Assembly: GCF_964204645.1 (NCBI RefSeq)
Contig: NC_134025.1
Location: 4,159,001-4,223,000, forward strand
Origin: Tubulanus polymorphus
Taxonomy: Eukaryota > Nemertea > Palaeonemertea > Tubulaniformes > Tubulanidae
Direction: 5' to 3'
Length of the DNA: 64,000 nucleotides
Part shown: positions 11,061 to 60,500 of the stretch, piece by piece
Layout of the letters: each line of letters starts with the position of its first letter
How positions within the stretch are numbered: position 1 is the first letter of the stretch
The notes under the pieces: generated by a model
Told to the model about the DNA's origin: nothing
Seen by the model: only the letters and a program-made list of their open reading frames with translations
Databases searched by the model: none
Made by a program: the position numbers and the translations under genes

Positions 11061-14000
11061 TTATCGCATGACGGGCATTGCTGTAGCGGCTTTTCCACCG
11101 GTAACATCATCTTCTCTCCACATTTGTGTTATGGTTTTAACCTCAGTATAGAATTGAATGCCCTGCAAATAAATTTTGAAGTCCAGTAATATTCAGACAC
11201 ATCTGACACTTTCAACCATCTTTTTCCTTATCAAAACGAACCTGCTTGCCATAGAAGTGTTGATCACCTCGGAATGAGCCTCTTGAACCGGTGAATGAGA
11301 ACATTGGGAGTGGGACAGGGATGGGAACATTTACTCCGATCTACAAAACAAAAGATCATTCAGATTTACCGGGCAATAGCGTACTATGATAAAAAACCTC
11401 TTGCCCAAGTTCCAACATACCTGTCCAACATCAATCTCTTGGGTGTATTTCCTTGCAGTTGCACCATTCGTGGTGAAAATTGCCGTACCATTTCCATAGG
11501 GATTTTTATTGATCAATTGGATGGCATCATCGAGTGTGTCAACTTCCATACTGCACAAAACTGGCCCAAAGATTTCTTCCGTGTAACAAGTGTTATCAGG
11601 CTGAAAGCGAAAATGATAATATAGTAAGTCCATCGCTGGCCTAGAAGTTGATTTGGTTCTCTCCAGGAGAAATGGATTACCTTGACATTATGGATTAGAG
11701 TTGGACCAACAAAGTTGCCTTTTTCATAACCCGGTACTTTGACATTTCGTCCATCCAACAAGATATCACAGCCCTGATCAGCACCACTCTGGATAAGATT
11801 AATCACCCTTTCCTTGGATTGGGGACTAATCAAAGGTCCGATATCAGCATTAGGTTCATGTCCTTCAAAATAAAATTGCAAAACCAAAGTTGAATCGTAT
11901 GATCACTTTTCAATTATTTAGAGCAGTGTTATCTCAGTCTTATAGATAAGCGTAAGTCAACACAATACCTGCATTAACCTGAAGCTTCTTAGCCTTCTCT
12001 ATTAATTCAGGGATCCATTCTTTGGCTTCTCCAACAAATACAATAGTTGTAAGTGCCATACAACGTTGACCAGCGGCTCCAAATGCAGCTCCAACAACCT
12101 GAAAATTGCATCAGATCATATCATTTGTCTAACTTGTGGCACACTACAACATGAGCTGAACCGTTTATACCTGGTTAAGTGTGGCTTCCTTATTTGCATC
12201 TGGCATAATGACGCCGTGGTTTTTAGCACCCTAAAACAGATATATGTAGAGAGTTTATTCAAAATCAACTTATATCAATGGTTTGTCAAGAATTGGTGTT
12301 AAACTCACCATGTTGGACTGGACTCTCTTTCCATTGCGTGATCCACGCTCATAAATGTATTGACCCTTAATTGATGAGACAGTATTATTAGTAAAGTATA
12401 CATCAATGGTTTAATAAAACATAATGTGGTAAACTGCGCGTGCGCTCTTACTGCTTGATCCGATCCTACAAATGAGATGGCTTGAATATGCGGATGATCG
12501 CAGATGAAGTTGACAGAATCGTGAGCACCGTGGATCACGTTGACAACACCGTCAGGGAATCCAGCTTGCTTAACAAGATCCATCAAGATCATAGTAGCTC
12601 CGGGATCGCGTTCAGAAGGCTTCAACAGCATAGTATTACCCGTTACAAGTGCCATTGGGAACATCTACAAATAGGTCAAACAGTGACTTTTTTAGTATCA
12701 ATTTTCATACAAAACTAGAATATCCACACTACAACCACCTAGGAGGTAATCCGATTCAATAGAACGCATTACATCGCTGAACCTTTGCGCTGTGGCTCTT
12801 ACAATCTGGAGTGATACAAGGGCGAACAAAGCGCCCTAATCAAAATATACTATATCATACTTTATTGTATTGCTATATCATGCAGACTTACCCAGAGAGG
12901 AATCATAGCAGGAAAGTTGAATGGAGTAATACCAGCTGTTACACCTAATGGAACCCGGTAGGAAATTGTGTCCATATCTTTGGCAATTCCGGACAATGAT
13001 TCTCCGAGTTGTAGTGATGGAATGCTACAACAGTGCTCAACAACCTCTACAAAGTTTAATGAATACATTTAATACTTCAAAATCGTTTCATTCAATTCAA
13101 CTACGGAATGAAAAGTGAAGTACTTACGAAGTCCTCGTTGTACATCACCTTCAGCATCAACTAAAGTTTTGCCTTGTTCTTTTGTAATATTGGCAGCTAA
13201 TTCTTTCTGTAAATCGAATGAGATATAATTATCTATGGGAGGCCTTACACTCAATTTCTCATAATGACATTCATTTTGGGAATTAAAGTAAAATACCATG
13301 TTTTCTTTGATGAGATTCTGTAATTTAAACATTAGCTGCTGGCGTGTCAGGATAGTTGTGTTGGACCATTCTTTAAAAGCAGCCTGACAAGAATTAACAG
13401 CTCTTTCCATCTCGGCTTGTGTTGACTTCGGGACACGTGTAATTACTTCATTTGTCGCCTTTGATTGATTACATGAAAATTACATAATCTTTTATGAAAA
13501 TAGTTTTTAAGACATTTATGTTTGAATAATTGACCTTCTAAACTTCAGACATTCATTTGAGATATGACAATGGTTTATAATAACCGATATCATTTCAATA
13601 TCTGCAAAGGACAAGGGGTACTCGTCATATTTGTGAGCTTATCAAAGATAACAAACAATCAATACCGGATTGTGCAGGTCAATCCATTCAGTAGCTTCAG
13701 ACTCTATAAACTTGTTGTCAATGAAGAGTTTTGTTGTTGGCTGAAATAAAAAATATCACCAATTTTCACAACGGATATTTTAATGAAATTAATTAATCAC
13801 GGCCTAACCGCTAACCCGAAGGCAGGGCACATTCTGAAAATCGTTCATTTTTTGGAAATGCGATAGCAGCAATCTAACAATACTTACAGCAGCACTTGAT
13901 CCATAATGTCTGCTTAAGTGTCCAGAAACACTGTTCAACAAACCCTAATGATAAGGAACATTTTCTGTTATTATGTATACGAATAAAGAACTGAACGAAA

Positions 14001-17039: not shown

Positions 17040-20000
17040 ATGTTTCCCATTATGAACAGGACATCTCCAGAACTTTTTCCCGGTAAGTTTTAAAGTGTCG
17101 TAACTTTCGTGAATAGTTTAGAAACTTTATGTCACTGTTAAAGATTACCGATTTAAGAATTTATAGTGAAATAACCTTTTTCTGAATGGACAATTTTTCA
17201 GTGTTCACAAATTCTTTTTATATAGATTCAAATGAAGATTTTATGTTATTGATTCAATGATAAATCAGTCCTAAAAATATAGCCAAATAATTTTGTCCAA
17301 ATATTTTGAGAACAATCGTAAAGTTGTGGTTATCGTAATTTATAGTTTGTCAATTAATTTCGGATTTGCACTTGGTGGACCACGAGTCCATCTTCTCATC
17401 AGTCTCAGCATACGGCCAATCAGTAATAATCACTAGCCCGATAAACGACCCGTATCCCCGAGTAATCAAACATTCCCTTCAATGACTCAAAGGAAGCGCG
17501 GCATATGATCTTCACAATTATAGCGGTCAAGTCCTTATAGCGTGTTCATGACTACATCTTTATTATAACCTAACAAGGGATACGCCCTGCTCCATGGAAA
17601 GCAGAGAGATTACCGCGGGTTCTATTTTGGATTCTCTAGAAAATAAATTGAATTTTAAGAAAAATAGGAAATAACTTTTCAAAACTCTTGTGAATGCATA
17701 CAGTGATAATCCAAGTGGATTTGTTGTCACCTGGGACGTAGCCTAGAAATAGCCAAACACTAAATAATTATTTCAACAATGATTCGGCGTGCCAATAGTC
17801 AGGAAATCTGCCGAAAAAATTTCAAACAATACCAATTGTAGCTGAGCATGATTCGTCACAGAAAGCATTGCACTAACCTTCACATTTGTCTTCAATTACT
17901 GATTATATATACTCGACCACACCATGTATGAAATTGCAGAACGAAATCTGAACTTTAACTCGAAAAATTAGTTATTCATTATCGATTGAATTAATCTAGT
18001 ACAATATTTTGAACGTTTTTTACTTTCTTCTTTCCTCGTAAAAGGGGCGATTTATTATCGTGACGACACACACAATTTAATTCTGGAAACTGTTTACTCT
18101 TTGGTCCTCAAAGCGGTGACATATTTAATAATTCATAGGGTTTTGATGGTCCGGCGATTTGCAGCACATGCGTTATGGTCGATAGCTGGATATTACTTAT
18201 CGCTAATCAATCTTGCTACCCCGGGCAAAGTGCTGGCTCCAGTGTACTGTTAAATAACGCGTACAATCCAGAATCCGAAAGTTTGCACTAAATATTATAC
18301 ATAGATACATTAACAAATCCTAGGGGGATATGCAGATATATCGAAATATCAGGTTCGCGAGTGAATTATCTCAAATAGAAATTGAGAATGAAATTCACAG
18401 GCTTCGATAATAAACTTCGTTATATAAGTGGCTTTGATTTATTTAAGAATGTCATGATATTTCTATATATCAATGCAAGAAAAATAGATTTGATGAAGAT
18501 ACGCCAAATAACGTGCAATAAGTGGCGGATGTTTGACAGTAATAACCGGAATTCTGGTGCCATTATTACAAACATAAAACCAGTTACAAACGTAATATTT
18601 GCAGTGATTTCTAGTCATCAGCTTTTGCACATCTTATTTTTTCTTGGGCGGACACGGATACATCACGATGACCAGTCAAAATATAATAGTTTCTATGACA
18701 ACTATTGTCTATTCCAGGAAAGGGGCAACCCCCGGGAAAATATACCTCATTAAAGACATACTAAATAGCGTACCTTGCGTTTCATTTCCGCAATTGCACA
18801 CGCGCCCTACTAAAATGTATTGACCATCGAAAGGACTGAGGGGAACACATTGTTAGATAATTCAGGAAGATCTCAATAATTTCTTCAAATTTTAGGAACA
18901 CGTCTTCAACCAGAAGCTTAAATATTCCAAAATATTCAAAATAATCTTAAAAGTTATTTTTGAGGTGCACCTCCAAATTTTCAAAACGAGCGATACTATG
19001 ACGACACAATGCTGTCCGTCCGCAATTTGACAAGTCGATGTTATAACAAGTTGATGGTTTGAATATCTCAGAAAGTTCGTGAGAGCGAGTCCAGCAGCAG
19101 AAAGCATGCGAATCTTTAGCGTTCAGCCATCTGTCATGTGTCTCTTATTGGTAATTCCTGTAGCAGCCGATAGTTTTGAATCATTAATTCCATGTGGTTA
19201 TTTCAGAACGCAAGGTAATTTGTTCGCGAAAATAACTACACGGGGCGATGAAAGATAATTATCAATATTCAATCTCAACAAATATCGGCAGTAAATAATC
19301 GTGTATTAATTGAGAAAAACGGTTTGTGTTTGTCGTATAAATTTTCTAGCTGGGCGTTTTTGATTCTTGCCGATAGGCTCTCGTATGCCTGAGTCAACTG
19401 ATTTCGATTATCGTAACAAGTTTCATTACACAAAATATTGCTGTAATTGAAATCAATGGCAGGTTGATTTGCCAACTTACTGACAATGATTACATCTACC
19501 AAGCCGGACAATTCCCAAAGGGCCATTTCGAGCTGAGTGATTCGGGGTAATGCTGTTTCCAAAATTGACCTTACGCACAAAGATCGGTGATCAGAATGCT
19601 GCTAACTAACAAACGCTACAAATGATATGTTAGAAAAAAGTCGCATCGTTGTGAGGTCATGGTTTAAATCCATAACACCAAATTTGATGGTTAATGCTTT
19701 AACGCAGTGCTACTAGGGGCTTTTTACGCGTGCCGCACAATTCCAAACACGTTTCCGGAGCAAAGTACATGTTTAAAATTTCATCTAACCTAGAGATCAG
19801 TGAATCCAGTATCCGCTGAAGTTACCCCGCAGTCACATGAAGCTGCATGGAAAGGTTTACAAATCTCTACTTTACAGCGCACGGAGAGGGCGACAAGATG
19901 CCACATTCAACATCATCAGTAAACAAAGTTGAATTAAAGCGCATTATGTAAACACTACTTGCACCACTCGATAGTCGTTCGCAAATGGCCAAAGTCGGCT

Positions 20001-23000
20001 CCAGTGTATGCCTAGAATCTGCTTAGTCAAGCCATCGACTCTCAACGACTTATTATGTTTCGATGCTCTCCAATTAAATCGGTCGCCTTTCTCTGCAGTA
20101 TTGCGCTTGTCAAAGGTGTGTTATGTTTATAAGGGCAATAGTAGAGGGAATGAGAGAACTCGTACAATCCCATCAAAAAGTAGATTTTATTGTGTGCTAC
20201 TGAATGCGCACATGCCATCACCGCAATCAAAGCACGCACATTTTTTTTTTTTGTAAGCAATGGAAACTTATAAATGTCAAAACCACCCCAGTGTTTCCCT
20301 GTTAAGAAATGATCGGAGTCATATTGAAATTAAATTGTTTCTCAGTAGTCTCAAAGATCCAATTACTGTTGTACCGGTAATAGTATTGTCGAGCGCAATT
20401 GCACCTATCCGTTGGCAGAAAGACCCAACGATGTGAAGAGAACTAGCTCGTTTTTGTGACGAGGTAACAAACCGCAAAGAACCGCATCAATATTACTCAA
20501 CCAGAGGGAAATTTCTGCTATTGTTACATGACTTCACTGCAGTAACCATATTCGCAAAAACTAATTAACTCTATCGTCGACGTCCACGACTTTTTCTCGC
20601 GAACCATTTCAAAATACGCTTTCTCTCCCAACGACCGTATTTTGCATAATAAAGTGAGACAGAAAATGAAATTTCAATTCAGTAAAGTTGCAAGCGGTGA
20701 AATTGATCAGAAATCATTTCTGTATTAGTGACGCTCGTGAAACTTTAACAATAAAATAAGAAATATTTTATACAGATCTAATTATGGTTTTAGTGAAAAG
20801 GAAAGAAGGAAACGAGGAAAAGTGACTTCTTTTCTCGTGCAGATATCTTTCGAATCAATGATGCAGAGTTTACGTATAACAATAGGCTTTTTTTCGTGGG
20901 AGACAGAAATGGATTCTATTAAGATGAATTAATTATAACGTTTGATTGTACAGGTTGTAAAAAATTTCCGATACTATTTCTAAGAAAGAGATTCTTTGTC
21001 ATTCTATCGTTGACATGGAGATATTAGAATTTGTCGATTTCACAAATCTGTATCGTCTGAGTGCAATGACTATTTCTATTATTTTCATTATAATTTTGAC
21101 TTTTTTGTAGAGCCGAGTTGGTTGATTACGCACTCAAATTCCTTATCAGCACTTCTGTTGTATCTTATAATTTAAGGAATTGTCAAGCATCCAACGCTTA
21201 CTTCTTAATGTTGAAAATATCAAGAGTTTTGCACAAACAAAAATGTATCTAACTAAATGCTGAACTTGAACTAAATACTCAATAATCTTTTTTTGGGGAT
21301 CATGGGTTTTTATAGGAACTCTTAATTCAACGATGTATTGTATACTGTCATTTCTAAATACGTGCAACAACTCGACCCTAGTAAACCTTACAAAGCATCA
21401 CTCCGTCGATCTTCTATCAAGCGAATATTAGTACAAATCTGCAGTAATTAGTTTGATTTAGGTTTTTGTAACAGGATTCGTCTCAACAACGCCCATGATT
21501 TCGTTAAATGACGTCCAAACATGAAATTCTGTAGAGTATTAATTGTCCTATTTGTTACACTGGTGACAAATTTCATGTTCGTAGCTACGAGGTGATTTAA
21601 CAATATCTATCTACTTATAGATTATATCATCTTACAATAGGAATGGTCGTTGAATATCATGGACCAAATATGCCGGATAGATTATATCCACTTGTTGTAG
21701 ATACGACGTTTTTTAGCGGCGAGAAAATCTTTAAAAAACTATAGTTGCAAAGCAGCGATAACGGGTTTCTGCCTGCTGGTTTAAATGGAGTACTATAGGA
21801 AGATTTCGAGGAAATCTGTTCACAACATACGGCTGTTTTGAAGGAGCGCCACCTAGGGGTCAAAATATATCCTGGATATGTGGATCCATAACTACTAAAC
21901 AGTAACTTGCTAAAAGTACTGATTTTAGCAAGTTAATTGATGATAACGAAGATACGTTGCTTTCACAGTCCCCTGGCGGCAATTGTATAAACTGATGATG
22001 CCAGTGGCATACTGCACATAATGTATGTACTTATACCAGGTTTAGTGATTTCTCGAATAAAAGGACTGAATTAAACGCGAATAACCGATGCTGAAATTTT
22101 CATAGAAATCCCGTATTCCCATTAGTAGATATAGATGAAAATGCGTTTTCTAGCGTTTGTATAGGTGGCGCTATACGGCAGTGGAAACTCGGATGAAGTT
22201 CACATCCCCTCGAGATGAATTAACTGTATTTTATCATCTGACCCGCGATTATAATTGAACTGAAAATACAATAATTTATCGCTTTATTGACAGATTCCAT
22301 CAGCCATGGTCATGACTCAACCGTAGGTAATTAATTACATAGCAAATAATAATAGTCCTTAATGCGATTGGGCAAAAGTTATATTGAGAAAATCCATTAT
22401 CCTCAGCAGTGCTCTAAGTTATCGTGAATAAACAAGCATTTGAAAAATTCCTTGAAGCTAAAAACTACACGATACATTATCGCGCATCTTCCTAATACTG
22501 TACCAAAAATCACCATATTTTCTGGTTTTTATTTTATGATTTTTCACAATCGTATATTCATATATTGAAAAATCCATCCTTTATAATTGTTCCGTGGTAG
22601 ATGAACGTGCTGCTTAATTTCAACTTCGAGTAATTAAAATCTAAAGGCTTTTGTACATATACGAATCGGAATTCATGATGACAGGTGATGGCTTGCAGGA
22701 ATTTGGACACGACCCGTCCCGGTGCAGTGTCTTCGTGATGAGCTACGATGCGGCACTGCAACCTGCTCGACAAAACACTCGAAACTTGATTAATCCACTC
22801 GCCTGCACGCAATGTTTCTTGCTGCTCAATTTGTCCGACTCCTCACGCGTATCGAAACGGGGAGCTATTACCCACGGTATCGGTCGCTAGTAACCTATTC
22901 GCGGTCGTTATATCGTTATATTACCTCTAATTAAATTGAAATCCTGCTCCGAGTTCCATACAGGGTGAAATTCCCAGACGTATAGTTAGTGAACGGAGGC

Positions 23001-26000
23001 GGTGTGAATGAGATTAATAGTAGTTTTTTATTGGCAACTAAGCGTCAGGGAAATGTTAAAAATTGTTAAAACTATTTTGAGCAGCTTCGAATGATTTTTT
23101 TCGATACAATTTCTTAGTTCTTGAACGTGAACGACTACTACTAGCATAAAGTATTCTCCGAAAAATGTTCAATTATCCCTCATTGACTGCTTAGATATGG
23201 CTGACTGTTTGATGTGCACATGCCTTAAGGAATAATTTCAGAAATATATAACAGAAGCCGAGGAACCTATATAAACAGGTGTCGTCAAGAGCAAATATCT
23301 TTAGGTTGCACAATTAGGCACTCTCCCCGTCGGGACCAAAAAAGTAAAGTTTTCCGAGATGATGTGATCAATTATTAACAATGCTTGTCTTAGTCGTTGA
23401 TGGAACTGAATGCTTTGATGGTAAGAGTGGGCGATGTGAAATACTGAAAGTCTCATACGTACAATACACATCGATCGCATCATTTCTGTTTTAGACCAAA
23501 TTTCGCTTAGAGAAAAGTTGAAACTATTGAGATTGTCATTGTATCGATTAGATCGTCGTCATCCCTTTACTGGATCATGATTGGTTGATGAAAAATTGAT
23601 CGAAGATAGATATTTTTTCGAATGGTTTGGTATTTTGAGTGCTCTGACCCGTGAAGTTCTACACTGCCCCGGGAGCAGCATTTTTTCAGGTGCTCTCATT
23701 TTTTTACGTTCCTTCCCTCTTTATTTGTCGCGTGAGAATTCCGTGAACTCCTGTCGCTCTAGAGCTGATTGTTTTATCATCGTTTTCTGATAATTCTATA
23801 CGTGTGATATTTACTCTGCAAAAAAATAATCGCGTTTAACCTCCGGCGAAGTAAAACCCGATGTGGATGACCAGACGAAAACTGGACAATTTATATCAGC
23901 GAAGTTCACAGAAAATTATCATCTGTTTAAGGACGGAATTAGCGCCGCAACCGCACGGCGTGCTGTCATATTACTCAGCATCGATCCCGTGACTGGATAC
24001 AGTTTAATCACAAGTGATAAGCACTTCTTGATAGCCTTATACTACACGGCGTTAGCCACCTTTCCATACGAAGGATGAGCCGGTATTGTGTGACTGTGAT
24101 TAAGATGGATTGACTGATACAATAGCCGATCAATTCGAATGTTACCAACGCGGATAAATTCTTTTGATAAGATTCTGACACCGGGTAATTGTCGGTAGAT
24201 GTAACAAGGATAGATTAAGTCTTTACTTTTTTCTCTATCCCTCGGTTTCTATTCGAAATGTATAACAGTAACGATGATATTTCCCGATAAGTTCTTTTTC
24301 TCGTCAGTGACGTTTTTCATAAATCCAATTCTCGTTTTCTATAACCGCAAAACAAAGTGGAAGATTTCTTTCATAACCGTGAAACTTACCAATCAGGTTC
24401 AATCTGTCTCATTGTCCCCACGCGCAATCCTGTTCATCACATGCAAAAAACATAATTGCCGGACCCGTTTTGCGGTAACTTTATCAGCAGCAAAAAATCC
24501 CGGCCATAAATCAGGAAAATTAGAGATTTTCTCAAATGTGAGCTGTATTTACAGACTAAGCGATGACCGCTGATTTAATTGTCATCTTTAACGGTGACTG
24601 AGACTAACAAGACCCCTGTGAATCGTCCATGCATTCTGTACAGTTGCTCTCGCCCTTTCCTAGGCTGACTCGAACAGTCGTGGTTAGATAAGAAAAGTTC
24701 TCGTAATTTGATATCATTGGATTCGGCTCGCAAAAAGTAGGGAGTCGAGATAATTTTGTGGATGCAAGCGGTACAGGAAAGGGGGAATGGCTAGATAAAG
24801 ATTGCGTTTCTCTCTCGCCTCTACCATATGCATCCACAATGACATCATGAAGAAGGATACATTATGTCAAACGTACAAGACATTACGCACCTGATAATTT
24901 AAAAGTGCAAAAATAGACAATATGTGTAGTTCTGTTTCGTTAAAAATTTCATTTGTTAAGTATATTTTTTCATTTTCTTTTTGTGGATTCGAAATCTCGC
25001 GGAGACGCGTGAATCATGAGGTACACATTGAGGTGACAAGCAATCACTCCTGCACTACGTGAAAAAGATATTGGATTATGCTGATTTTTCGGAGTTCCTT
25101 TCGCGGAATGGTTTGCCTCGGCTTCAAACACGAATAAAGAATTCCATTTCTGAGACGATTAAAGTAGTTCTTTCATTGATGAAGTTGTAGTCGTGTAATC
25201 GCATATGGTTTCTCTGATTCTGGAGAACAAATTTGTTTACTGTGACCAATCAGTGCGCACATTTGGGCTTTCACTACACGTAATATGGGGAAATTTGATC
25301 ACTTATACTTTAACCACTGACTGGTTGGGTTATCCGTCCGTGTGGAAGACGCCGGTCTCCGTGGGATTGTGTCATCATCTTACCTAAAGGCAAACCACCG
25401 TAAAATCATTGAACATGTCCCCATTGGACTTAATAAGATCATAAAAGTCACTACTGCGAATTGAGTGTCTATTCTATACCGTTTTGCCTTATATAAACCC
25501 TAGATTTCTTTTGAACGAATGATAGCCACTTGGATCATATATATATTTTCTCGATACAGGAAATAAAACTCATTAGAATGTTTCAAACTCTGATCTACTG
25601 AAACGAACTCAGGCAATTATGACTAGATCAGTCAATTTATCCTTACAGCTATCTGTCTGGAATTTGAAAAGGAGAAATTATTGTAGATGATTTTTATGAA
25701 GAAAACTAATTTGAATCAGTGATCCATAAAAATATAGTATTCATGGCCGAGGCACATCTCCACACATCAAAGGTTCTCATTATGCAGCGTGGTCAGAGGT
25801 AAACAGTGACGATGATTCAACTGAAAAAGACCATGCGTATAAAAGCGATTACTGTTTCCTTTTCAGATGCCGTATCTTTGTCGACGTATACCAGTCAAAG
25901 CACTCAAGAATAAAATGCGGCAGCTCTTCTTTCTTTGTTGCGTCTTCAGTAAAAACTGTTAGATAAACAATTTGCTCGAAACTATTAGCTTCTAATTTCC

Positions 26001-29000
26001 GGGCAAACTACGGCGAGATATAATTTTACATGTCATTATACGGTTTATGGTGCACTGAGATATTGCGACTTGTATTTTTCGTATCTAGACTTTTGAGCTA
26101 CTTCGGAAAGTTGTTTCATCGGGCTACTCTGTTTCATGGCCTTACGAATCATAACGACGTTATTGGTATGTCAATCAGCATGAACCAACCTTTCACATTC
26201 CTTATAGTAAAATAGATAATATAACTGAGGGATGGGTACAATACAATGAATGATTGAGTATTCAGGACTTGGTGAATTTGCCTATCAGTAATCGAAAAGA
26301 ATCAACAAAACCATTCAACACTATCGTTGCCTTGCTTTAAATGCGTACATGCGTGTTCCGAGGGCTGTTCCCAAACATCAGTAGTCAGGCAAAGATGTCA
26401 CACCAGATAAAACACTAATAGCCGATGCTTCGAATACTAACACGTTTTAAGACACGCATGAACCGATAAGAGACTGAGCGAAGCGTCTGCTGATTCATTC
26501 GTTCGAATTCAGATCTTCATAATTCCCGTGAAAATGTGCAATGAAACGAAAAGCTTTTAACTGCTCTTCAACTTTAATACAGAATTCAAAGTTAACGACT
26601 TATTCTTGTTCTATAGTTAACCACCTATTTCCATGAAGAAAAAAAAAACGATAAGACCTTTATCTCTAAGGTGAATTAACCCTTAAACTAGTAAATTGAA
26701 GGCGAATTTTAGTAATAAACTGTAGTTAATTAGCGAATCAAGGGTTACCGTGACGTGGTAGACCCCAGGCTCTGCAGAATAAAACACTCGCATCGAGAAC
26801 AAACCTTCCACCGATCGTGGGAATATGAAAATATGTCATGCAACTTGTTTTTGGTACCGACAAGCTTCGGCATTACTCAATTGGTCCTTATTCGGCGATG
26901 CAGTAAACCACTTGGGCAGCAATCACTCGGTAAAATTCCTGCCTGTGAATGAATGAATCTGAGAATGGGATGAGTTCCAGACAATATATTTCACAAAAAA
27001 AGCTTTCATTTTTAACGAAACCAAACGTTTTATACAAGATAATCTATCCATAATTTCTACAGATAGTGTGTTTACAATGTTTTCTTATGTATTAAGTTTT
27101 ATTTGAATTTGCCGACTTGAATAAAATGTTTTAAAAATCTTGGTGGAGGAGTAAGATACGGTTAAGCAATGTGAATTATGCCTATTTCTTTTACAAATAA
27201 ATCATAATTTGCGCGTTAACTTGAAATGTGTCACGTTTAAAACGTAATGTATTTGCCAAGCTCGTCAGTTTGCTAGATTATACGGATGGAGATTTGTTGT
27301 AATTAGCGGATACTGAGCCAATTATAGTGAATTGTCGTCGTTTGAAACATAGATCATTTTTTCCTACAAAACGTTCAACGGAACAATCGAAAAATATTTT
27401 AAATTTTAGAATAAGAAGCCGGGTTGGAGGAGGTTTGGTTAGGGATTTTCATCTTATTTGTAACATATCAACGAATAAGGCCACAATGAATAAATGTTTG
27501 TACGAATTCAGATGTTTCAGACGAACTTAGTCTGCCAAAAATACCCGGACTTATGATCGACGGACCCCCGATTAAACAAGAAGAGTCTACCATGCCGAAG
27601 ATCGACTTCACAATCGCCCAAAAGTGTAAGACGGCAAAGGATTGTGTTGGTGGTGAACACGTATCTTGCGTCAAGTTTACGGGAAAATTCAGATGCATTT
27701 GTATAGGAAAATCCGGGGATACGGAACCGCTTGTTGACGGGAAATGCATTATGGCTACTCCAGTTAAAAAGATTAGCGCAAGTGAAGGTGAGCGAAAGAG
27801 TATGTATCGTTCAGAATTATCATTTTTTTCTGCGAATTTCCTTCATTGTGGTCCATATATCTGTGCGTGGAATTCATTTGGTAACGGTTTGAATGAATCT
27901 AGGTGACTCGCCCGTTCTTGGCGTTCTTGGACACGATGATATCGACCGTTTAAACAGAGAAAACTTCAAAAACATCGGGCACACAACTGAGGTAAAAAGA
28001 CCGAATTATCTATAAAATTCTTGAACGATTTATTATGCAACTACATGTATGTCAATCACAAAAGGGTTTTCTGCACCACAAATGTGTTCTAGAAAATTGG
28101 TTGATAAGAATGAAACAGTCGACAGAAAAAGCTAGCCATATATATCTGTTCAGAGTAAAATTAGATTCACATCATTGATGGAAAAATTGTTAAGAAGATG
28201 ACGAGTAACAATTCTCAAATCACAAACCGATTTTCCGATTGGCATTCTAAAATATCACAACAAGCACTTGATTATGCTCTTAATGTCCACTTAACATCGC
28301 TTTAGCAGCTCTTAAGTCCTCTAAAAAGATTGAAAAAATGCACCCAAGGGTCGCATTAGCCAATCCTTCAAACATTCTCAGCACCGTGTCCTCCAGCAGA
28401 GTCAATATAATTAAAGTGAAGACACGGTCCCATGATAACGTGCGACGATAAATCGAGAATGAAATATGATATTTAGAGAGCCGATCCCACTACCTATCCG
28501 AGGAGATTAAAGCGTAATTAATGGATTGACTAGTAGTTACAATTCGGAACTTAAGTACCGGATAATATTTCTTCTTGAAAATAGTTTTCAGTCATGTGTG
28601 TCGGAATTACGTGTATTTACAGTTTCAGGGAAATGCGATGCCTCGACGGGAAGGTGAACTAGCTGACTTCAACACTTTGCTAGTTCTGAAGATTCTTTTA
28701 CCGATTCTCGGGGTGATTATTATCGTGCTCGCTGTCTTATTGTTTCTCAAGAAACGCGGCATCGGTATATTCAAAGTAACTGGTGAACCCGGCGTGTCAA
28801 ATTCATCTTCGCAAGTTGTGTGGATGAGTCGGAATCCTGATAATTCTCTACTACTCGACAGTATGAGTTTAGTAAATAAGAATCCAACCTACTACGCCCC
28901 ACATCCCGAATTGGTTATCACAAAATACAGTGATAAAGAGATTCCACCTGAAACCCTCGTACTCATGGAAGAAATTGGCGAAGGAGCATTTGGGCAGGTT

Positions 29001-32000
29001 TTCAGAGGTAAATAAGGTCGAATGTGTTTGTGTTTTCTAGTACCATGAATGAATGAATTGAATGCTTTATTTTCAAATATGATTTACAACGTAGTGTACA
29101 TAGATGCAAAATACAAAATACAGTAAATTATACCTGGAGGGGCCTGTAGAAACTAAGAAATAGTTTCTACAGGCCCCTCCAGGTATAATTTACTGTAAAA
29201 AGTGAAGAAGAAAAAAGAGGAATGTAAGAACTCAAACCACTCACTCAGTCAACCCTCAAACACACAACATGCACACTTTTTAATTGTTATTATCTTTATT
29301 AATTTAACTATAATTAGAGTTTCATTAGGAGATACATATTATGATATGAAGTAATCGTTCAATAAGTAAAGATTTTAGATTTTTGCTACTGTTATTCTAG
29401 AGTAAATTTTCTTCTTTGACTTGTTAGTAAATTTTGCCGTCGCCGAGTATTACGACTGAATATGAAAATTTTGGCTCCAATAATTTTCGAATGATTTCGG
29501 TAATTCAGGGTGAATGAATTTATAAATGAAAGTACCTAGTTATAGTTTATCAATATCTTTGAGTTTGAGAAGTTTTAACTGTTTAGATATAGGGTCAGTG
29601 TGCGCCAAATAATAGGAATTAGAAATCATCCTAATAATTTTTTTTGTAATACAAATAATGGCTGTAGTTTATTTTCGTACTTTCGTCCCCTAACCAAATA
29701 ACAATACTGGTGGTAAGGAAATATAAATAAAGGATACGAAGTGACCTCAATGGGAGTTATATGTATTTGGCTCTATCTATTATGCCAATAATTCGACTGA
29801 TTTTATTTGACCAAATGGAGAAACTCAGGAAATTAATTCCTCCCTACTTAGCAAAAATAATGAAACCGTTGTGTTCATGATTTTTTCTTGTTTTCGTTAG
29901 CTTCGCAGTTCCAAACTGTTTAAATCCAGCTCATTGCTTTTCGGGGATTAATTACATTGAGTCCTGCAGGGTTCTAAATCGCAAAATCTAGCATGCTGTT
30001 TACAAAGAAAACGTTCTAATAGCTTTCAGTAGTTGTAATCAATGGTTTAAGAGTTAAATTGCGTCTTCATTGCAGGGGATCTGTTATGTGAAGATGGAAC
30101 TAGACAACCAGTAGCAGTCAAATTATTGAAGAACGGTGTTTCGTTGGAAATAAAGGAAGATTTCGAACGCGAAGTTGAAATAATGAGTACTTTTGATCAC
30201 GACAATATATTGAAACTTATTGGTGTCGTCACAAAAGGTAAGCGAGGCAGAAATTTCATTCCAAAATACGAATATTAGTATATGCACTCTCTGCTGATAG
30301 AAATTCTGTATTTTAGACCTGATTTATTGCATAGTTTTTTAATGGATATTTCCAATATATGAGACAATGAAATGAAAATTTAAGTATATTTCCGTATCTA
30401 TTCTATCGAGCAGAGTCTGATGAAAATGAATTTCCATGATTTCAAACGATGCACAGTCTTATTAATTATGTATTAAGACTGCAGTGTATAGGATTGACTG
30501 TAAACGAAGAGTTCGTTGATATAAGGACTATAAGTATTGAGGTCTGATTTAACGACGACATAAGGAGTAGATCAATTTATTGTCGTCGGTTACTGTACGG
30601 AAAAGCTCCAGATTTCAATTAAACGGCGGCAGAAGATCAAGTGTTGGTTTGATCTTTTCTTGTAGATAGATTGAAACGGCTTGAAGTTTTTTGTAGTCAT
30701 GCGCGTATATCGCTGCCGTTTGTTCCGTCTAATCGCGACGTTTTCCCTTCCGAAGGAAAGATTCTCTTTTCACGATAAGTCAAAAGATTTCACAGAATCT
30801 TATTAGCAAATGCCATCAAACATCGCCGACTTTCTAATTAGTACTAGATCCACCTGCCGAGGATGAAACGATACTATCTCGGTTTTAAAATGTGTCACCG
30901 TAATCTACGTTCAGATCGCTACGAAATTCCGCCGAGTCGGTTTCAGTAGTTAAGCTTGTCGGCGACGGCTAATGTATTATGTCCCTAAGGTTGGTACCTA
31001 CCAATTATATCATTTGCCAGACAATTATTCCGAAATTATGAAGTGCACCTCAGAGTATAGTAATCCAACTGGCGCTTAATTAATCGCGGAGAGGAGTTTC
31101 AAATCGAGCCGGTGAGTGTAATCACTGATACTCCGATACTATCAGTTACAACAGATTTTATAGTTCGTTTGAATTCCTATCATTTACATTTAAATCGTTT
31201 AATGACGATAAATCAAATGCAGTCGGGAACAGTTTTACGCCCAGAATAGTAATCCTCCACGCTATGGATGATTAGTATATTTTCAGTACAACATTGGGAT
31301 GGTACTGATCTGTAAATATTCCGGCGAGGTAATCGAATTTGTTCTAGGCATCACAGCTGATGATATCAAGGCTAGAGCCCTAATTTTGGACGCGTCGCGG
31401 TTTTTATTCCGGGAAAATCGACAAAATTCGTATGGATGGCCTAAACGCGCAGCGGTCATTAGATGAAATGAAAGAAATCATCCGATCCAAGAATTATTTT
31501 ACTTTTCTATTACCAGTACATCTAAAACGTATTTTCTGATTTTCATTATTTTTCTTAATTTGAATTGTCATTGCATTGTTTTAGAAGTTGAAGAGACTCC
31601 GTATATGGTTTTTGAATTTATGGAATTTGGAGATTTAGCAGGTCTTCTACGCAAGAATGACCCTATAATGCGCAAAACAAGAGACTGTCCCATAACGCTA
31701 AAAGATGTAAGTTCGTTCTTATTGATTATCATTGGATAAGAATCATCCATTTGGATATTTTCTAACTATCGAAAGTATCGACGCCCAAGTATTGACCATA
31801 ATCTGGAAAATGTAAGATATGTATAGCGATAATTTTCTCTCTATCGCGCAGACGGAATTGGTAGATATTGCGGTACAGATTGCAAACGGGATGGTTTATT
31901 TAACTCAGCAACATTTCGTTCATAGAGATTTAGCCACGCGCAACTGTTTAGTCGGCGATGGACTTTTGGTTAAGATTTCAGATTTTGGCATGTCCCGAGA

Positions 32001-32722
32001 CATATACACCTGTGACTATTACAAGGTAGAATGTATACTACACGTATAAATTATCTTTCAATGCTTACACGCGAAGATACATCTAAATTTGGAGATAATG
32101 ATGAAATGTTTTTGTGAAAATAAAATAAGTGCAACTTGGAATTAGAAGTCTTGACCACGGTACGTCCAACAATATTGATAAAATTTCAGATCGGAGGTTC
32201 TCGGATGTTACCAGTCCGTTGGATGTCACCGGAAAGTGTAAAATACGGTAAATTCACTACTGAATCTGATGTCTGGGCATACGGGGTCGTACTGTGGGAA
32301 ATATTCTCCTACGGAAAACAGCCTTATTATGGCCATACCAACGAAGAGGTGAGAACATGAATAAGAACTGAAAAACTATGATTGAAATCTAAATTATGAT
32401 AGATAGTAGTTTAACTACGTCTTGAGTCTAGAATTATAGCATTCGCCATACGTTCTGAGATGAAGTGTGATGTATTTTCAATTTCTCACATGTATACTTT
32501 AAGGTAGTTGTATTTATCGAGAATCACATACTGTTGTGTAAACCAGAAGGTTGTCCGTCAGCAATTTACGACATGATGCTTGAATGTTGGCATACAGATC
32601 CGGATGAAAGAATATCGTTTGTAGATATTCACAAACAGTTAGTTGATCACAGCAAACACATGGTGAAACAGATACACAAACGACGGGTCGTCGAGAATGG
32701 TCATTGTTCTATACCTGTATAG
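17040..32722 (+). CDS. Compact receptor tyrosine kinase, Trk/ROR/MuSK-like kinase with one EB/EGF-like module
   Basis: Exons 17040-17082, 27521-27787, 27903-27991, 28629-29007, 30076-30237, 31585-31706, 31852-32025, 32190-32348, 32504-32722; 537 codons with every phase matching. Residues 50-91 hold six cysteines (C-x5-C-x7-C-x8-C-x-C-x14-C), an EB/EGF-like spacing; a transmembrane helix spans about 150-173 with KKR after it; NPTYY (218-222) fits a Shc/FRS2 PTB site. The kinase has glycine loop GEGAFGQVF (250-258), VAVK lysine 275, HRDLATRN (378-385), DFG 398-400, and activation-loop tyrosines 406, 410 and 411 in the YxxxDYY pattern of Trk, ROR and MuSK, so it looks catalytically intact. The C-terminus ends SIPV, a possible class II PDZ ligand; no Trk-type PLC-gamma site is present. 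No signal peptide is seen. The first exon is the least certain part; ligand and orthologue unknown. Confidence 0.8.
17083..27520 (+). other. 10.4-kb first intron of the receptor kinase gene
   Basis: No exon with both splice context and family resemblance is visible on the plus strand, so I treat this as one long intron. Two places deserve mention: a short GC-richer island at about 22660-22890 and a minus-strand open frame at 19275-19580 (both under findings). Long first introns often carry enhancers, and missed exons encoding further ectodomain or a signal peptide cannot be excluded. Confidence 0.5.
29119..29197. repeat. Perfect hairpin in receptor kinase intron
   Basis: Arms of 37 bases (29119-29155 and 29161-29197) are exact reverse complements around the 5-base loop AGAAA. 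The arm contains TACCTGGAGGGGCCTG, clearly different in composition from the AT-rich surroundings. It lies in the intron between the transmembrane exon and the first kinase exon. It could be the collapsed end of a foldback transposon or a small-RNA precursor. Confidence 0.85.
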
Positions 32723-42055: not shown

Positions 42056-45000
42056 ATGTGGTCGTTTTTTACAAGAGATCCTACGAAAGATTTTAATTAT
42101 GAAATTGGGGAAAGAGTGTCAGGACTGGATGATAAATCTATCTGGAGTCTACACGAAGGGAAAAGAAGGGTAAAGTCATCCATAAGTAGTCTGTACACAA
42201 AACGTTTACACTACAACAGTGTGACGTTTCCGTATTGAAACCCATTTGAATCATCATTTGAAAATGGTTATGTTTCGATTGATTTCACAGAGTGACGGGG
42301 AGCAGGTTTCAATATTTGTATTTGATGCGAAGAATGGCAGTGAGTCCACGGTTAGTATTCCACTTCCATTTGACCAGACCATGCAGGCCTATGTCTTTCT
42401 AGATAGTCATGCCATTCACTAAATCAAATAATTCCTCATACAGGAATGATATTGGTATAGATTGATGTTTAGGTCAGGAGTGAAGGCTTGTGGAGGATAG
42501 TAAAAGTATCCCCTTGAAAATTTTCTTATCGCTCAAATAGGCTATTCACCTGTACCGTTTATCATCAATATTCCAGCTGAATGTAGCGAAGCAGTCTTTC
42601 AAGAGAATCAAGACTTTACGTCATCCAAATATTCTGACGTACTTAGATGGACTTGAGGTAAATTAAATCATATTCTTCTAGCGCGTCGATTACTATAAAG
42701 TATCGCTCAATGCCACATGAATATTTTATTTCTAGACTGAAAAAGTGTTATACATTGTCACAGAGGTTGTCATTCCTCTTGAGACATATCTTACTTTGCA
42801 CAAAGACGATGGAAGTGAGAATGAAGTTGCGATATCTTGGGGACTTCATCAGATTGCTGTATGTATTGAAATCCATATTATTTTCCTTCAAATTGAACAG
42901 ACTTGGTACCAGTTGTCAGAATCAGAGAAATTTATAATATTTCATTGGTATATGATGTTAAAATCATTTACTTAGTAAGGCTGATTGAACCGTATGGGAG
43001 TTAATTGAGTTTTGAAATTTTTGTCTCATTTTGAATTTCAGAAAGGTTTGAGTTTTCTGATTAATGATTGTAAGTTTATTCACAATAATGTGTGCATTTC
43101 TTCTGTGATGGTTGATCGAGCCGGTGAATGGAAACTAGCTGGTGTTGACTATATCCAAACTGCTCAAAGCAACGAACCAATACCTCCTAAACCTCCAGCT
43201 CTTGATAAATACAAACCTCCTGAAACATCTAATCCGAGAACAGTACCTTCAGAAAAATGGTAAATTTTACTCTCTTGTTTGGTGAGTGTTTCCAAATTGT
43301 CATACATGTATTCTGTAGTGTAAAGCATTTAATTTCAGGTCAGCAGATATGTGGGGGCTTGGTTGTCTCATTTGGGAAGTATTTAATGGAACTCTTCCGA
43401 GGACAGCATCTCTAAAACAGATGGGAACTATTCCCAAGAAGCTGGTACCAAACTATTGCGAACTAGTTGGCGCAAATCCGAAATCTCGACCAAATCCTTC
43501 GAAATTCTTGGAGGACTGTTGTCGACCTGGTCGCTTTCTGAACAATGATTTCATTAAAACAATGTTGTTTTTAGAGGAAATCCAGGTAAAAACCATCAAA
43601 ATCATGGACTTTTGATTCATGAATCTGTGAACAGTACTGTTGACTTAAATTGCTATTTCAGATTAAAGATCAGAATGAGAAGATGAAATTTTTCAGTAGT
43701 TTACCCAAATCACTAGACACATTCCCACAGACTTTCTGCAAACATAAAATCCTGCCTCAGTTGCTCAATGCTTTCGAATATGGTAATGCTGGATCTGCGG
43801 TACTTACACCATTATTTAAGGTAAGACATTATTTAAGGTAAACTTGAATGAAACCAAAACCTTCTTTGTCTTTTGAGGCCAGAATGTTCTAATGGGAAAT
43901 TTAAACCTTGTGTTTTAGATTGGAAAGTATTTGGAGACCGATGAATATCAGAAGAAGATAGTTCCTTGCGTTGTGAAATTATTTTCATCGCCAGACCGAG
44001 CTACACGAGTTAAACTACTGCAACAGGTAATTCATTAGTTATTTTAAGTTATATCTAATTAGTGAATCAAATTCTTTGATAATTCTCAATGATTTTAGGT
44101 TGAACACTTTGTGGAACATCTAGATATTGCAACTGTCAATAATCAAATTTTTCCGCATGTTGTGCAAGGTTTTCTGGATACAAATCCTGTCGTAAGGGAA
44201 CATACAATAAAGGTTTGTGGTTCTTCTTACGTATTGAAATTGTTTACGGTTTGAAATAGTTAAGAATTAATAATCAGCATCTTATTTTAACAACATGATT
44301 TTTCAGGCAATGATGCATTTAGCCTCAAAACTGAACCATAAAAACCTAAATGAGGAATTGATGAAACATTTTGCGAGGTAAGAAGCATAAATGTAGATAG
44401 CATGAAACCAAGAACTAAAATCATGTGTTTTCAGTGACTAATTATGATTTTCTTTCATGCAGACTGCAGGCAAAAGATGATCAAGGTGGTATTCGAACTA
44501 ATACAACTGTATGCCTTGGAAAAATAGCTACCTATCTTTATCCCCAGGTAAGCATACATACATACATTCAAAACATATCCATCAATTCATCAGTTCATGT
44601 TGATGTTAATGAGTGGTTTTTTTTTCAGAATCGATCAAAGATCTTAATATCAGCATTCACACGCGCGATCAGAGATCCATTTCCTCCAGCTCGACAAGCT
44701 GGTGTACTAGCCATGGCAGCAACACATAATCTATATACTTTACAAGATTGCGCTTCAAAACTATTACCAGCATTGTGTTGTTTAAGTATGGATCTGGATA
44801 AGGGCGTGAGGGATCAGGTATATATTGATTTTGTTTATTCTTTCAGTCACGTTAGATACTGTAAGTTTTATGACTTATTTTGAATTGACAGGTCTTTAGA
44901 ACTATTAAATGTTTCTTGAGCAAACTGGAAAAAGTATCAGAACAACCAGAACTTGTGCAAGAGATGGGTGAGGATATTGAATTGTTTGTGAATTCAGTAT

Positions 45001-47098
45001 TTGATTTGGTTGCATATGTGAAATAAAATGTGAGTTGTTTCTTTTTTGTAGAAAAAGATGTTGAAATAGGTGGAACTAGTGCTGATAATGCAACTGGCTG
45101 GGCAGGATGGGCAATGGGTGGTATGACTTCTTTGACCACAAAACTCTATTCAAAAACAAAACGACCATCACCTAGTAAAAAAGGTAATATTGAGATTGAT
45201 AAAGCATTACCATTAAAGATCAAGTTATAGAATGAATTGGCATTATTTTGTGAGTTTCGAATTATTCTCAGTTGAACCAGTTGCTGATGAAAGTGCGAAG
45301 TCAACGTCATCACAGGAGACGACTCCTATCCCATTGAGTAAACTGCCTGATGTCGTAACTGAGGAGACACCAGTCGACGATAATGATGCAGATACAGGAT
45401 GGGATGATGAAGATTGGGGAGAAATGGATGTAAATATTTTCAGCAAAATGGGTAATATATGATAGATAATACCTCAGGCATAGGTTGATGACAAATTTGT
45501 GTCTATATCTTACTTAGGATATTGATGAACAGCAGGATAAAGGTGATTCTATGGGTGTCCAGGCCGATACTGGATGGGATGAAGGTGGCTGGAATGATGA
45601 CGACAATTGGGAAAGTTTGGAAGCTACAAATCAGGTATACAAAACACGTCCTTTGATAAATTATAAATTTTATCAAAAGGACAGTCAACGAGTAAGCCCT
45701 ATTGAGATAGCTAACAGCCACTTGTATTTCTGTGCTGCAACAAACGCCCAGCTAACCTTTCAGCTCCGTCTGAGACATCTTAGCCTGTTTGAAGGGTATA
45801 CACTGGGTGAGGATCACTCACGGATAGGTACTTTCTACCACTGGTCCAGGGACTTTTCCCAAAGTATCATTGAGGTACTCCGATGACAAGTCTGTTTCCT
45901 GTCCACTACACTATGCAGTCAAGAATCCTATATATACCTGATATTTGATTTATTCTGACCTGTGCGGTATTTTCAATAATTCGTCAAAAATTCCCCATAA
46001 GTCTCAATCCTTTCATCATTCTTTACATTCAATCAATTGCTAGAAATGATGTATGAAATGAAAATGATTAGTATTTTTTGTTGATACCAAACTTCATTCT
46101 ACCAATGTATAAATGGACATGTGTTGATTGTAGTTCCATATTTTGTCACCAGGTGGCCAGAATTAAAGTTTGGTTATTTCGATGACCATAAACGTGTATT
46201 TTAAACCTATATATAAAACCTATATATTGATTTTATTCTTTACTTAGAACTATGATTTTATTTATAAGTAAATCCACAACTTTCATCGTATAGCTTGTTA
46301 AATTTTCAGGGAAATGCGAAAATTGCTACAAATGATGGTTGGGATGATGGTGATTTTATTAGTCCAAATTCAGATGCTCAGCCTGCTAGTAGTTATGATT
46401 GGGGCGACACTGGGAATGATGATTTCTTTAATTTAATTGAAAAGGTAATAATCATGTCAGGTTAATTAGTTTATCAGTTGATCAATTTGATTAAAAGTAC
46501 ATATGGTGCATATGTCTAAAAAACTTTTAAAATTTTCTCTTTATCGGAATTTATAGCCTTCTCCCAATAAAACTAAATCATTGATGTCTTCCAAATCGAA
46601 GTCACCACCACGAACTAGTGCACCTTCTAAATTATCAACAACAACGAATACCCAGTCCATGTCATCAACTACAACAACATCAAGTAAATTAAAAATGACT
46701 GCGGGTTGGGAGGAGAGTGGCTGGGGTGATAGTGAATGGAAGGATGCCAATAGTGAGTGGAAAGATGCTGACAGTGGTTGGAAGGATGCTGATCATAGTG
46801 AATGGAAAGATGCTGAAGATTGGCAACCTATTGATAATACTGGTATGTATAGATCATTCTTTCATTGATATTCGCAGAATCCAAAACTTGAAATAATTTA
46901 ATAATTCTTCATCAAATTTTGTTCCTAGGACCAACGAAAGCTGAACTTGCGCGACTGAAACGAGAGGAAAGAAAACTGCAGAGACAAAAAGAAATAGAAC
47001 AAAAACGTGCTGCTAAACAGGGAGGTGCAATGAAACTGGGTGCTAAGAAAAAACCTGCAACAACTGCTGATGACTTTGACAATTTTGATAATTGGTGA
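42056..47098 (+). CDS. SCYL1: SCYL1-type N-terminal kinase-like protein (COPI-associated pseudokinase)
   Basis: Nineteen exons: 42056-42169, 42291-42350, 42577-42657, 42736-42858, 43042-43259, 43339-43585, 43662-43820, 43919-44026, 44099-44212, 44307-44377, 44463-44547, 44629-44817, 44892-44967, 45052-45183, 45272-45429, 45518-45634, 46310-46444, 46557-46842, 46929-47098; 880 codons. The N-terminal kinase fold ([19 protein letters not shown] onward) is a pseudokinase: HNN replaces HRD and GVD replaces DFG. HEAT-type repeats follow ([39 protein letters not shown]). From about 630 the tail is acidic and tryptophan-rich, with fourteen Trp in short WDDxDW/WKDA motifs, then a basic helix and a C-terminus FDNFDNW. 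In the family SCYL1 acts in Golgi-ER COPI traffic through a C-terminal RKLD motif that this protein lacks; sequence like KLGARK is present but continues for 16 more residues. Confidence 0.95.
45681..45925 (-). mobile_element. Possible tRNA-derived SINE in SCYL1 intron
   Basis: In the intron between exons 16 and 17, a GC-richer block read on the minus strand begins CATAGTGTAGTGGACAGGAA, close to the tRNA box A, and is followed by CGGAGTACCTCAATGATACT at about the box-B position, but box B is poor. The rest is a non-coding body without an obvious tail repeat. The plus-strand open frame across it is fortuitous. This is a composition-and-motif call only. Confidence 0.35.
46735..46818 (+). repeat. 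21-bp coding tandem repeat (S-[EG]-W-K-D-A-D)
   Basis: Inside SCYL1 exon 18, four imperfect copies of a 7-codon unit ([21 protein letters not shown], then SEWKDAE after two extra residues) follow one another. They encode tryptophans 790, 797, 804 and 812. The repeat is in frame and keeps the acidic-Trp pattern. Confidence 0.85.
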
Positions 47099-57512: not shown

Positions 57513-60500
57513 ATGTTCCGACATCAAGTACAGTTAACTAATAAGATAATAAAGTGCGCGTCTAAAGTGGCCGGGCGCCGCTGTTTACGAAGTTATCATT
57601 CGGATGAAGGTGTATTTGGGTTCAAGAATGACAAATCTGCGAGATCCGTCTCTAATCTGGAATCATCCAATACAGACAATGGTGAGTTGCTAAGTTGAAT
57701 TGCACTACATGTATCTTTCATTTTGGTATCTATCTTATATGCTAGAGTGGGTGCTTTATTTCTAATAGTTGAAGAGGATGATCATCGACCAATGTCCTGG
57801 TGGAAAAAATTATTTTTCCACGACCAAGGGCGACGCAAAAAATCTGAAAATTCAGGTATTTTTGTTGAAAGTTGTTTTCCATGAATGTTACTCCACATAA
57901 TTAGTTATTTCTTAGTAAGCTATCTATTTTTCAGCATGATTTGAAGTTTTCTGCTTGCACCAGATTCAGAATATTTGTTTGTATTTTGATTTAAACTTCT
58001 ATAGGCGCTTTTACGAAATTGAATCTGATTCGGTTTAGCTAAATCTGATTCGATGTCGGAAAACAAAAGGTTTAGTAAATCGAATCGTTTTTCGTAAATG
58101 AGTCAAATTTATCAATTTATCAATTTAAAGGTCGCGATTCAAAAGAAAATGGGCGTCAATGGTGACCGAATTATTGATAGATGATGGTCTGCGATAGATG
58201 TCTTAAGCCCTCGGTCGAAGAGGACGCCATGTTGGATTTCACTGACTAAATCGCTACTAATTTGCTGGCCGAGCAAGTTAGTCGATTTAATAAATCAGTT
58301 TACTAAACCGCGTCCATAAACAATTGGATTTATTAAACCCGATTCACTAAACCGCGGGCCGTAAACGTGAAACTTAAATCGATTTACAAAGATTCAGTTT
58401 CGTAAAAGCGCCTATTGTGTAATGAAATTACTAATAATGCAGTATTTTTATATATATGTATACATATATATATATAGGTGAATTATATAGATTTTTTCTT
58501 ACTGTCCATTATTCATTACAGATGAGCGCATTTAGCTTACAGAATTATCTATGTTTAGAAGCATTTTCTTAACATGTAGACTTAAGTGCAATGATTTTTG
58601 GTCCAATCTATGGATGATTGACGAAGAACTTGATTTTTGATTTCAGTGAATGTTGATCTCATTGATAACGCACATGTCATACGCCTGGTACAAGCTTACA
58701 GAGAATATGGACATAAAAAGGCTAAGATTGATCCATTAGGAATCATGAAATCACAGTCAGTAAAAATTGTAAGCTATACCAAAAATACTCTGCTGTAAAA
58801 TGTTTTTAAATGGCCATTTACACTTACAGACCAGCACCAGAATTAAAGCCAGAATTATACGGCTTATCTGTACAGTCCCCTGCATCGTTCAATGTCAAAG
58901 GAATTCTTCATTCTGAATTAACGAATGCAACGTGTGCAGAACTAGTCAATGAACTGGAGAATATATACTGCGGAGTTATTGGAGCAGAATTCCAGCATTT
59001 AATAGTGAGCCATTTTTATTTTCAATTACCTAACTTAATTTGATTCAATGTTTACCATGATTCAGTCTATGACGTGACATGTTTTATTGAAGGAAATGGA
59101 TGAAAGAACTTGGTTTGCTGAAAGGTTTGAAAATCTGCATTCTGTTCCGATATTGGCAGAACGGAAAGTCGAATTAGCGAAACTGATGCTTAAATGTGAG
59201 GTAATAATGTCTGAATTCATCAGGTTTTATATACGGAATTTGTCTTGGAACATGATTTAAGATATTGATGTCTGCTGTTTTGTAGGGTTTTGATCATTTT
59301 CTGGCCAGTAAATTTACTACCGTTAAACGATATGGTGGAGAAGGAGCTGAAAGTATGATGGCTGTGTTTGATGAGGTTTTCGCGTCTGCTGCTGAAAGTA
59401 AGTTGGACTGTTTTCTGACCTCATATGACTCTATTTTTGAGTATGATTATCGTATAATATTTTCCTTCTAGTGGGGGTAAAGGATATAGTGGCATGTATG
59501 CCTCATCGAGGAAGAAATAACCTGTTGACTTGTATGCTCGATTTTCCGATTGCTGTCATGTTGAGAAAGGTAAGTAATGCAATACGAAATGAATGTACCA
59601 CTATTATGAAGGATTCGCTAACGAACGTTACAATCCCTAAAGCACTGAAGATTCTGAGAGCTAGTTTTCATGCATCGGTGAAAATATGTTACAGATGAAA
59701 GGTTTGAGTGAATTTCCTCCAGGGGTCAAGGGCGCTGGTGATGTTCTGTCACATTTACGTTAGTATTTTCATCAAACCTGTGAAGAGACGTAGTGTATCT
59801 AATCGGCTTTTATACGTTCGTTTTGTATGTTATTCAGATACTTCCATTAATCTGAAATATGGTGAAAAAGACGTTCATGTATCATTAATACCAAACCCTT
59901 CACATTTAGAGGTAAGAGGAGTACAGGCTTTACTTATTTCAATGCTTACCGAGATTCATCCTTTTATTGCTATTTAATGCCAAACGGTTTGATACCTTTT
60001 CAGGCGAACAATCCAGTAGCGGTAGGAAAAACTAGAAGTCGCCAGAAACGATTACATGATGGAGATTATAATAATGACACTGATGTGCATCTCGGTGATA
60101 AAGCACTTTGTCTACAAGTTCACGGTGATGCATCATTTACTGGTCAGGTAAATTACATCTATAACTTCATATCCTTCATCCTCAGACCTGTTGTGCAGAA
60201 GTTTTACTTTGAATGGTCTATTATTCAGGGCATTGTTCCCGAGACATTTACATTGGCTTACACCCCACATTTCCGAATTGGTGGCAGCATACATTTGATA
60301 GTTAACAATCAACTAGGGTTTACTACAGAACCTGAGAGAGGAAGGTAATGTACTGTAATTGTGTTATTCATTCATAGTTCTATGATCGAAAAAGTGCTGA
60401 AGAAAATCAAACATTTACGCCGTTTATTTGAACTGCAGGTCATTCCATTACTGCAGTGATGTCGGGAAAATGATCGCTTGTCCAGTACTACATGTGAATG

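Follow-up and report, generated by a model that had tools for sequence, protein, structure and literature searches.

A probable Trkl receptor kinase gene with a small six-cysteine ectodomain in the nemertean Tubulanus polymorphus

Which kind of receptor is encoded by the gene found between positions 17040 and 32722 of the window, i.e. the whole 64,000-nucleotide stretch of T. polymorphus DNA analysed here (contig NC_134025.1, positions 4,159,001 to 4,223,000)? An earlier note, made from the sequence, described a Trk/ROR/MuSK-type kinase joined by one transmembrane (TM) helix to an ectodomain holding a single six-cysteine module. It considered this architecture to match nothing known and proposed either a new receptor class or a lineage-specific reduction. 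Our analysis favors another answer: with a probability of about 0.86, the gene encodes a Trkl (Trk-like) receptor kinase (a Trk paralogue of ancient protostome origin), the match to Trkl being made by description.

Rebuilding the nine exons from the sequence gave a single open frame of 537 aa with a stop at its end. All eight introns are GT-AG and every junction is phase-consistent, in exact agreement with the nine exons, eight junctions and 537 residues proposed earlier. The presence of a Trk-like receptor kinase gene in the window is supported far beyond chance, and this gene is real. All its exons are on the + strand. Downstream of the proposed first exon (17040-17082), the exon that encodes the six-cysteine, EGF-like part of the ectodomain (27521-27787) may use an acceptor at 27512 in place of 27521, which leaves the phase unchanged. 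It is followed by an extracellular juxtamembrane exon (27903-27991, GT-AG and in frame) and by an exon (28629-29007) encoding the TM helix, the cytoplasmic juxtamembrane region with its NPTY motif and the kinase P-loop (31 residues recorded for these features). The remainder of the kinase is encoded by an N-lobe exon carrying the VAVK lysine and the alphaC glutamate (30076-30237, PDB and Pfam matches), a hinge exon (31585-31706), an exon with the catalytic loop (11-residue motif) and the YTCDYY activation loop (31852-32025) and a C-lobe exon (32190-32348), the last three all having PDB matches. In the gene model, the last exon (32504-32722) encodes the end of the kinase and a tail of about 28 aa devoid of tyrosine, then the stop. 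Within the intron after the TM exon lies an inverted repeat (29119-29197) whose two 37-nt arms match perfectly around a 5-nt loop; it is possibly a small transposable element. Elsewhere in the window, fragments read by eye resemble succinate-semialdehyde dehydrogenase (11334-13479, - strand), cytochrome P450 (35557-36036, - strand), SCYL1 (44419-46865, + strand) and 2-oxoglutarate dehydrogenase E1/DHTKD1 (59866-60345, + strand).

The kinase itself is unambiguous. The protein matches the Pfam tyrosine kinase model PF07714 (E=1.3e-90) together with an overlapping general kinase model, and nothing besides kinase models scored above the Pfam cut-off. In the PDB search, the best match is TrkB (E=3e-86), followed by TrkC, TrkA, MuSK, ROR and insulin-type receptors. 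The scores for the Trks, MuSK and ROR are nearly equal (293, 285 and 277 bits for TrkB, TrkC and TrkA, 277 for MuSK and 253 for ROR). A 21-residue TM helix starts at about residue 153, NPTY lies at residue 218 and the P-loop region begins at about residue 247. Together with the in-phase exons, these results bear out the Trk/ROR/MuSK-type kinase and single TM helix described in the earlier note. The single TM helix, the NPxY motif before the kinase and the YxxDYY activation loop are all features of the Trkl type; YxxDYY also appears in the kinase alignments, along with a 21-residue stretch. Since the P-loop, the VAVK lysine, the 11-residue catalytic-loop motif and the YTCDYY activation loop are intact, the kinase is predicted to be one that should be catalytically active.

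The ectodomain of the gene model is short, about 115-150 residues. It contains six cysteines at residues 50, 56, 64, 73, 75 and 90 (C-x5-C-x7-C-x8-C-x1-C-x14-C), and the 537-aa model and these positions support a single six-cysteine module as its apparent whole. Its six cysteines have an EGF-like spacing, from which an EGF-like fold may be predicted, but searches for EB/EGF identity against Pfam profiles and PDB sequences returned no match to the module. An AlphaFold model built from the sequence of the module alone has low confidence (mean pLDDT 67), and Foldseek retrieved nothing meaningful with it. It is very unlikely that the module does not adopt a true EGF fold and that the gene belongs to a distinct lineage of short-ectodomain receptor tyrosine kinases apart from Trkl.

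The small size of the ectodomain could also result from an incomplete model, exons for Ig, LRR or other domains having been missed between the 5' end and 27512, in which case the receptor would be longer. The model indeed implies a 10 kb intron upstream of 27521. The three + frames, read through stops from 13.2 to 27.6 kb, contain no significant Pfam domain (Ig, LRR, Fz or Kringle). However, the same scan at the true Trk locus of this genome detected just a weak I-set match (E=0.098), and the upstream scan is therefore insensitive to split Ig or LRR exons. Fz and Kringle domains are a different matter: in genome-wide searches, such exons turned up no more than a few kb upstream of both the Ror and the Nrk kinase, with none in the window, and thus none near the kinase gene at 17040-32722. 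Furthermore, a gene resembling aldehyde dehydrogenase, read from the other strand, bounds the space upstream at about 13.5 kb, and the Trkl relatives were published with just a small EGF-type ectodomain (PMC2772990). Hidden ectodomain exons are, on balance, unlikely.

The 5' end is the one part of the model that is doubtful. Exon 1 is supported by its start codon (ATG) and by a phase-1 donor of good quality (7.4 bits with an ad hoc matrix). It encodes 14 residues plus one base, and its coding status is doubtful. The hydrophobicity of its product is negative and no signal peptide is therefore encoded by 17040-17082, a segment that is possibly 5' UTR. We searched both strands for reading frames that open with a hydrophobic stretch and run into a phase-1 donor, and compared the outcome with Markov-resampled sequence. 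Two candidates were found on the + strand and none on the - strand, 0.1 being expected from the resampled sequence. The better-looking one, at 19106-19214 (+ strand), encodes a 21-residue putative signal peptide followed by DS, in keeping with the -3,-1 cleavage rule, within a further 15 residues that end at a moderate phase-1 donor. Spliced in frame to the downstream exons, it gives a protein of 559 or 562 aa. This suggests that 19106-19214 is a credible alternative first coding exon. The Trkls of Aplysia and Daphnia were published as having no signal peptide (Wilson 2009, PMC2772990), so that the start in exon 1 may still be correct.

To which family does the kinase belong? The genome separately encodes a Trk kinase (C5:10.253 Mb), a Ror kinase with Fz and Kringle domains (C2:27.03 Mb), an Nrk/MuSK kinase also with Fz and Kringle domains (C2:5.525 Mb) and a DDR kinase. 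Orthologue gaps are clear for the Ror (403 vs 293 bits) and Nrk (365 vs 267 bits) of this genome, in contrast to the near-equal scores of the window kinase. In a maximum-likelihood tree that took in Trk, MuSK/Nrk, ROR and DDR kinases, the window kinase forms a long, separate branch outside these groups; the phylogeny called for by the earlier note thus places it in none of the four families. AU tests rejected its pairing with the Trk (p 0.011), Nrk (p 0.007) and Ror (p 0.002) of the same genome. They did not reject a sister relationship with the Trks as a whole (p 0.20) or with Nrk/MuSK (p 0.21). The window kinase is an old, separate lineage. As one would expect of an animal gene, searches of bacterial/archaeal and of viral contigs revealed no relatives. 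The genome survey also returned just one match to a neurotrophin (NGF family), which lies on the contig of the window about 0.45 Mb away (C1:4657311-4657610), and at least 125 Kringle domains, an unusually large number, many of them clustered. One weak DUF1676 hit had hinted at an insect origin, a reading that was set aside given that the whole genome contains a single weak match of this kind and so many Kringle domains.

These results bear on both proposals of the earlier note. A lineage-specific reduction would make the gene a recent duplicate of the Trk, Nrk or Ror of this genome that lost its ectodomain. The sequence of the window kinase is similar to each of these, but its branch is long and separate and the AU tests reject each pairing; therefore the gene did not arise recently by the stripping down of one of them. 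This reading, rejected on the AU tests and on the description of Trkl (Wilson 2009, PMC2772990), is very improbable. A new receptor class distinct from Trkl is likewise very improbable. In its favor, the likeness to Trkl is by description, the tail is short and the module has no profile match. Against it, the readable Trkl features (small ectodomain with a cysteine module, TM helix, NPxY and YxxDYY) are all present. The description of Trkl by Wilson 2009 (PMC2772990) and the AU tests led us to reject it.

The layout that had been thought to match nothing known, and hence to suggest a new class, was in fact already published as that of the Trkl family: a small, EGF-containing ectodomain, one TM helix, NPxY, a Trk-like kinase and YxxDYY (Wilson 2009, PMC2772990). 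Trkls were identified in Aplysia, Lottia, Daphnia, honey bee, jewel wasp and pea aphid; in trees they stand apart from Trk, ROR and NRK, and deuterostomes were reported to lack them (Wilson 2009, PMC2772990). Since our comparison with Trkls was by description and not by sequence, the assignment draws on architecture together with the exclusion of other families, and orthology with Trkl is the most likely interpretation.

Signaling can be proposed by analogy. This single-pass receptor would most likely be activated by ligand-induced clustering, or by transactivation by other receptors, as reported for ApTrkl of Aplysia acting downstream of serotonin. Clustered receptors would phosphorylate one another on the YxxDYY activation loop. 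Shc-type adaptors with PTB domains might then bind the tyrosine of the juxtamembrane NPTY motif and trigger ERK signaling. This route and any ligand go beyond what the sequence motifs themselves tell. Because the C-terminal tail has no tyrosine, the PLC-gamma route of vertebrate Trks is improbable, and the Trk-type C-terminal PLC-gamma site is probably absent. ApTrkl mediates serotonin-dependent ERK activation, according to the citations of Ormond 2004 in PMC10464504 and PMC5176290, and its internalisation is kinase-dependent and serotonin-dependent (PMC3215182).

Among known systems, the other receptor families resemble the window gene mainly through their kinases. Trks (TrkA/B/C and invertebrate Trk) have the closest kinase by PDB search and share NPxY and YxxDYY. 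The window gene differs from them in that no LRR or Ig was found by an insensitive scan and in its lack of a tail tyrosine for PLC-gamma. Its kinase has about 52% identity to that of MuSK and about 45% to that of ROR, but the gene has neither the Fz nor the Kringle domains of MuSK/NRK and ROR. By description, the likeness to Trkls (ApTrkl, Dappu-Trkl and those of Lottia, Apis, Nasonia and Acyrthosiphon) extends to the small ectodomain with its apparent single cysteine module, the TM helix, NPxY and the YxxDYY kinase. As in them, no Ig, LRR, Fz or Kringle domain was found, by a scan of low sensitivity for split Ig and LRR exons, and the gene shares its genome with Trk, ROR and NRK. The Trkls of Aplysia and Daphnia differ in having C-terminal extensions after the kinase, long in Aplysia and shorter in Daphnia (Wilson 2009, PMC2772990), whereas the tail of the window gene (about 28 aa) is short, and much shorter than that of ApTrkl. 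They may also differ in the signal peptide, which they were reported to lack, while the window gene has a possible signal-peptide exon. The gene has a modest bearing on the evolution of neurotrophin signaling and most likely does not represent a new receptor class. Trk, Trkl, ROR, NRK and neurotrophin occur together in the Daphnia genome (Wilson 2009, PMC2772990), and T. polymorphus, with its Trk, Ror, Nrk and neurotrophin set plus a probable Trkl, would be a further genome combining them, which fits an ancient protostome Trkl lineage.
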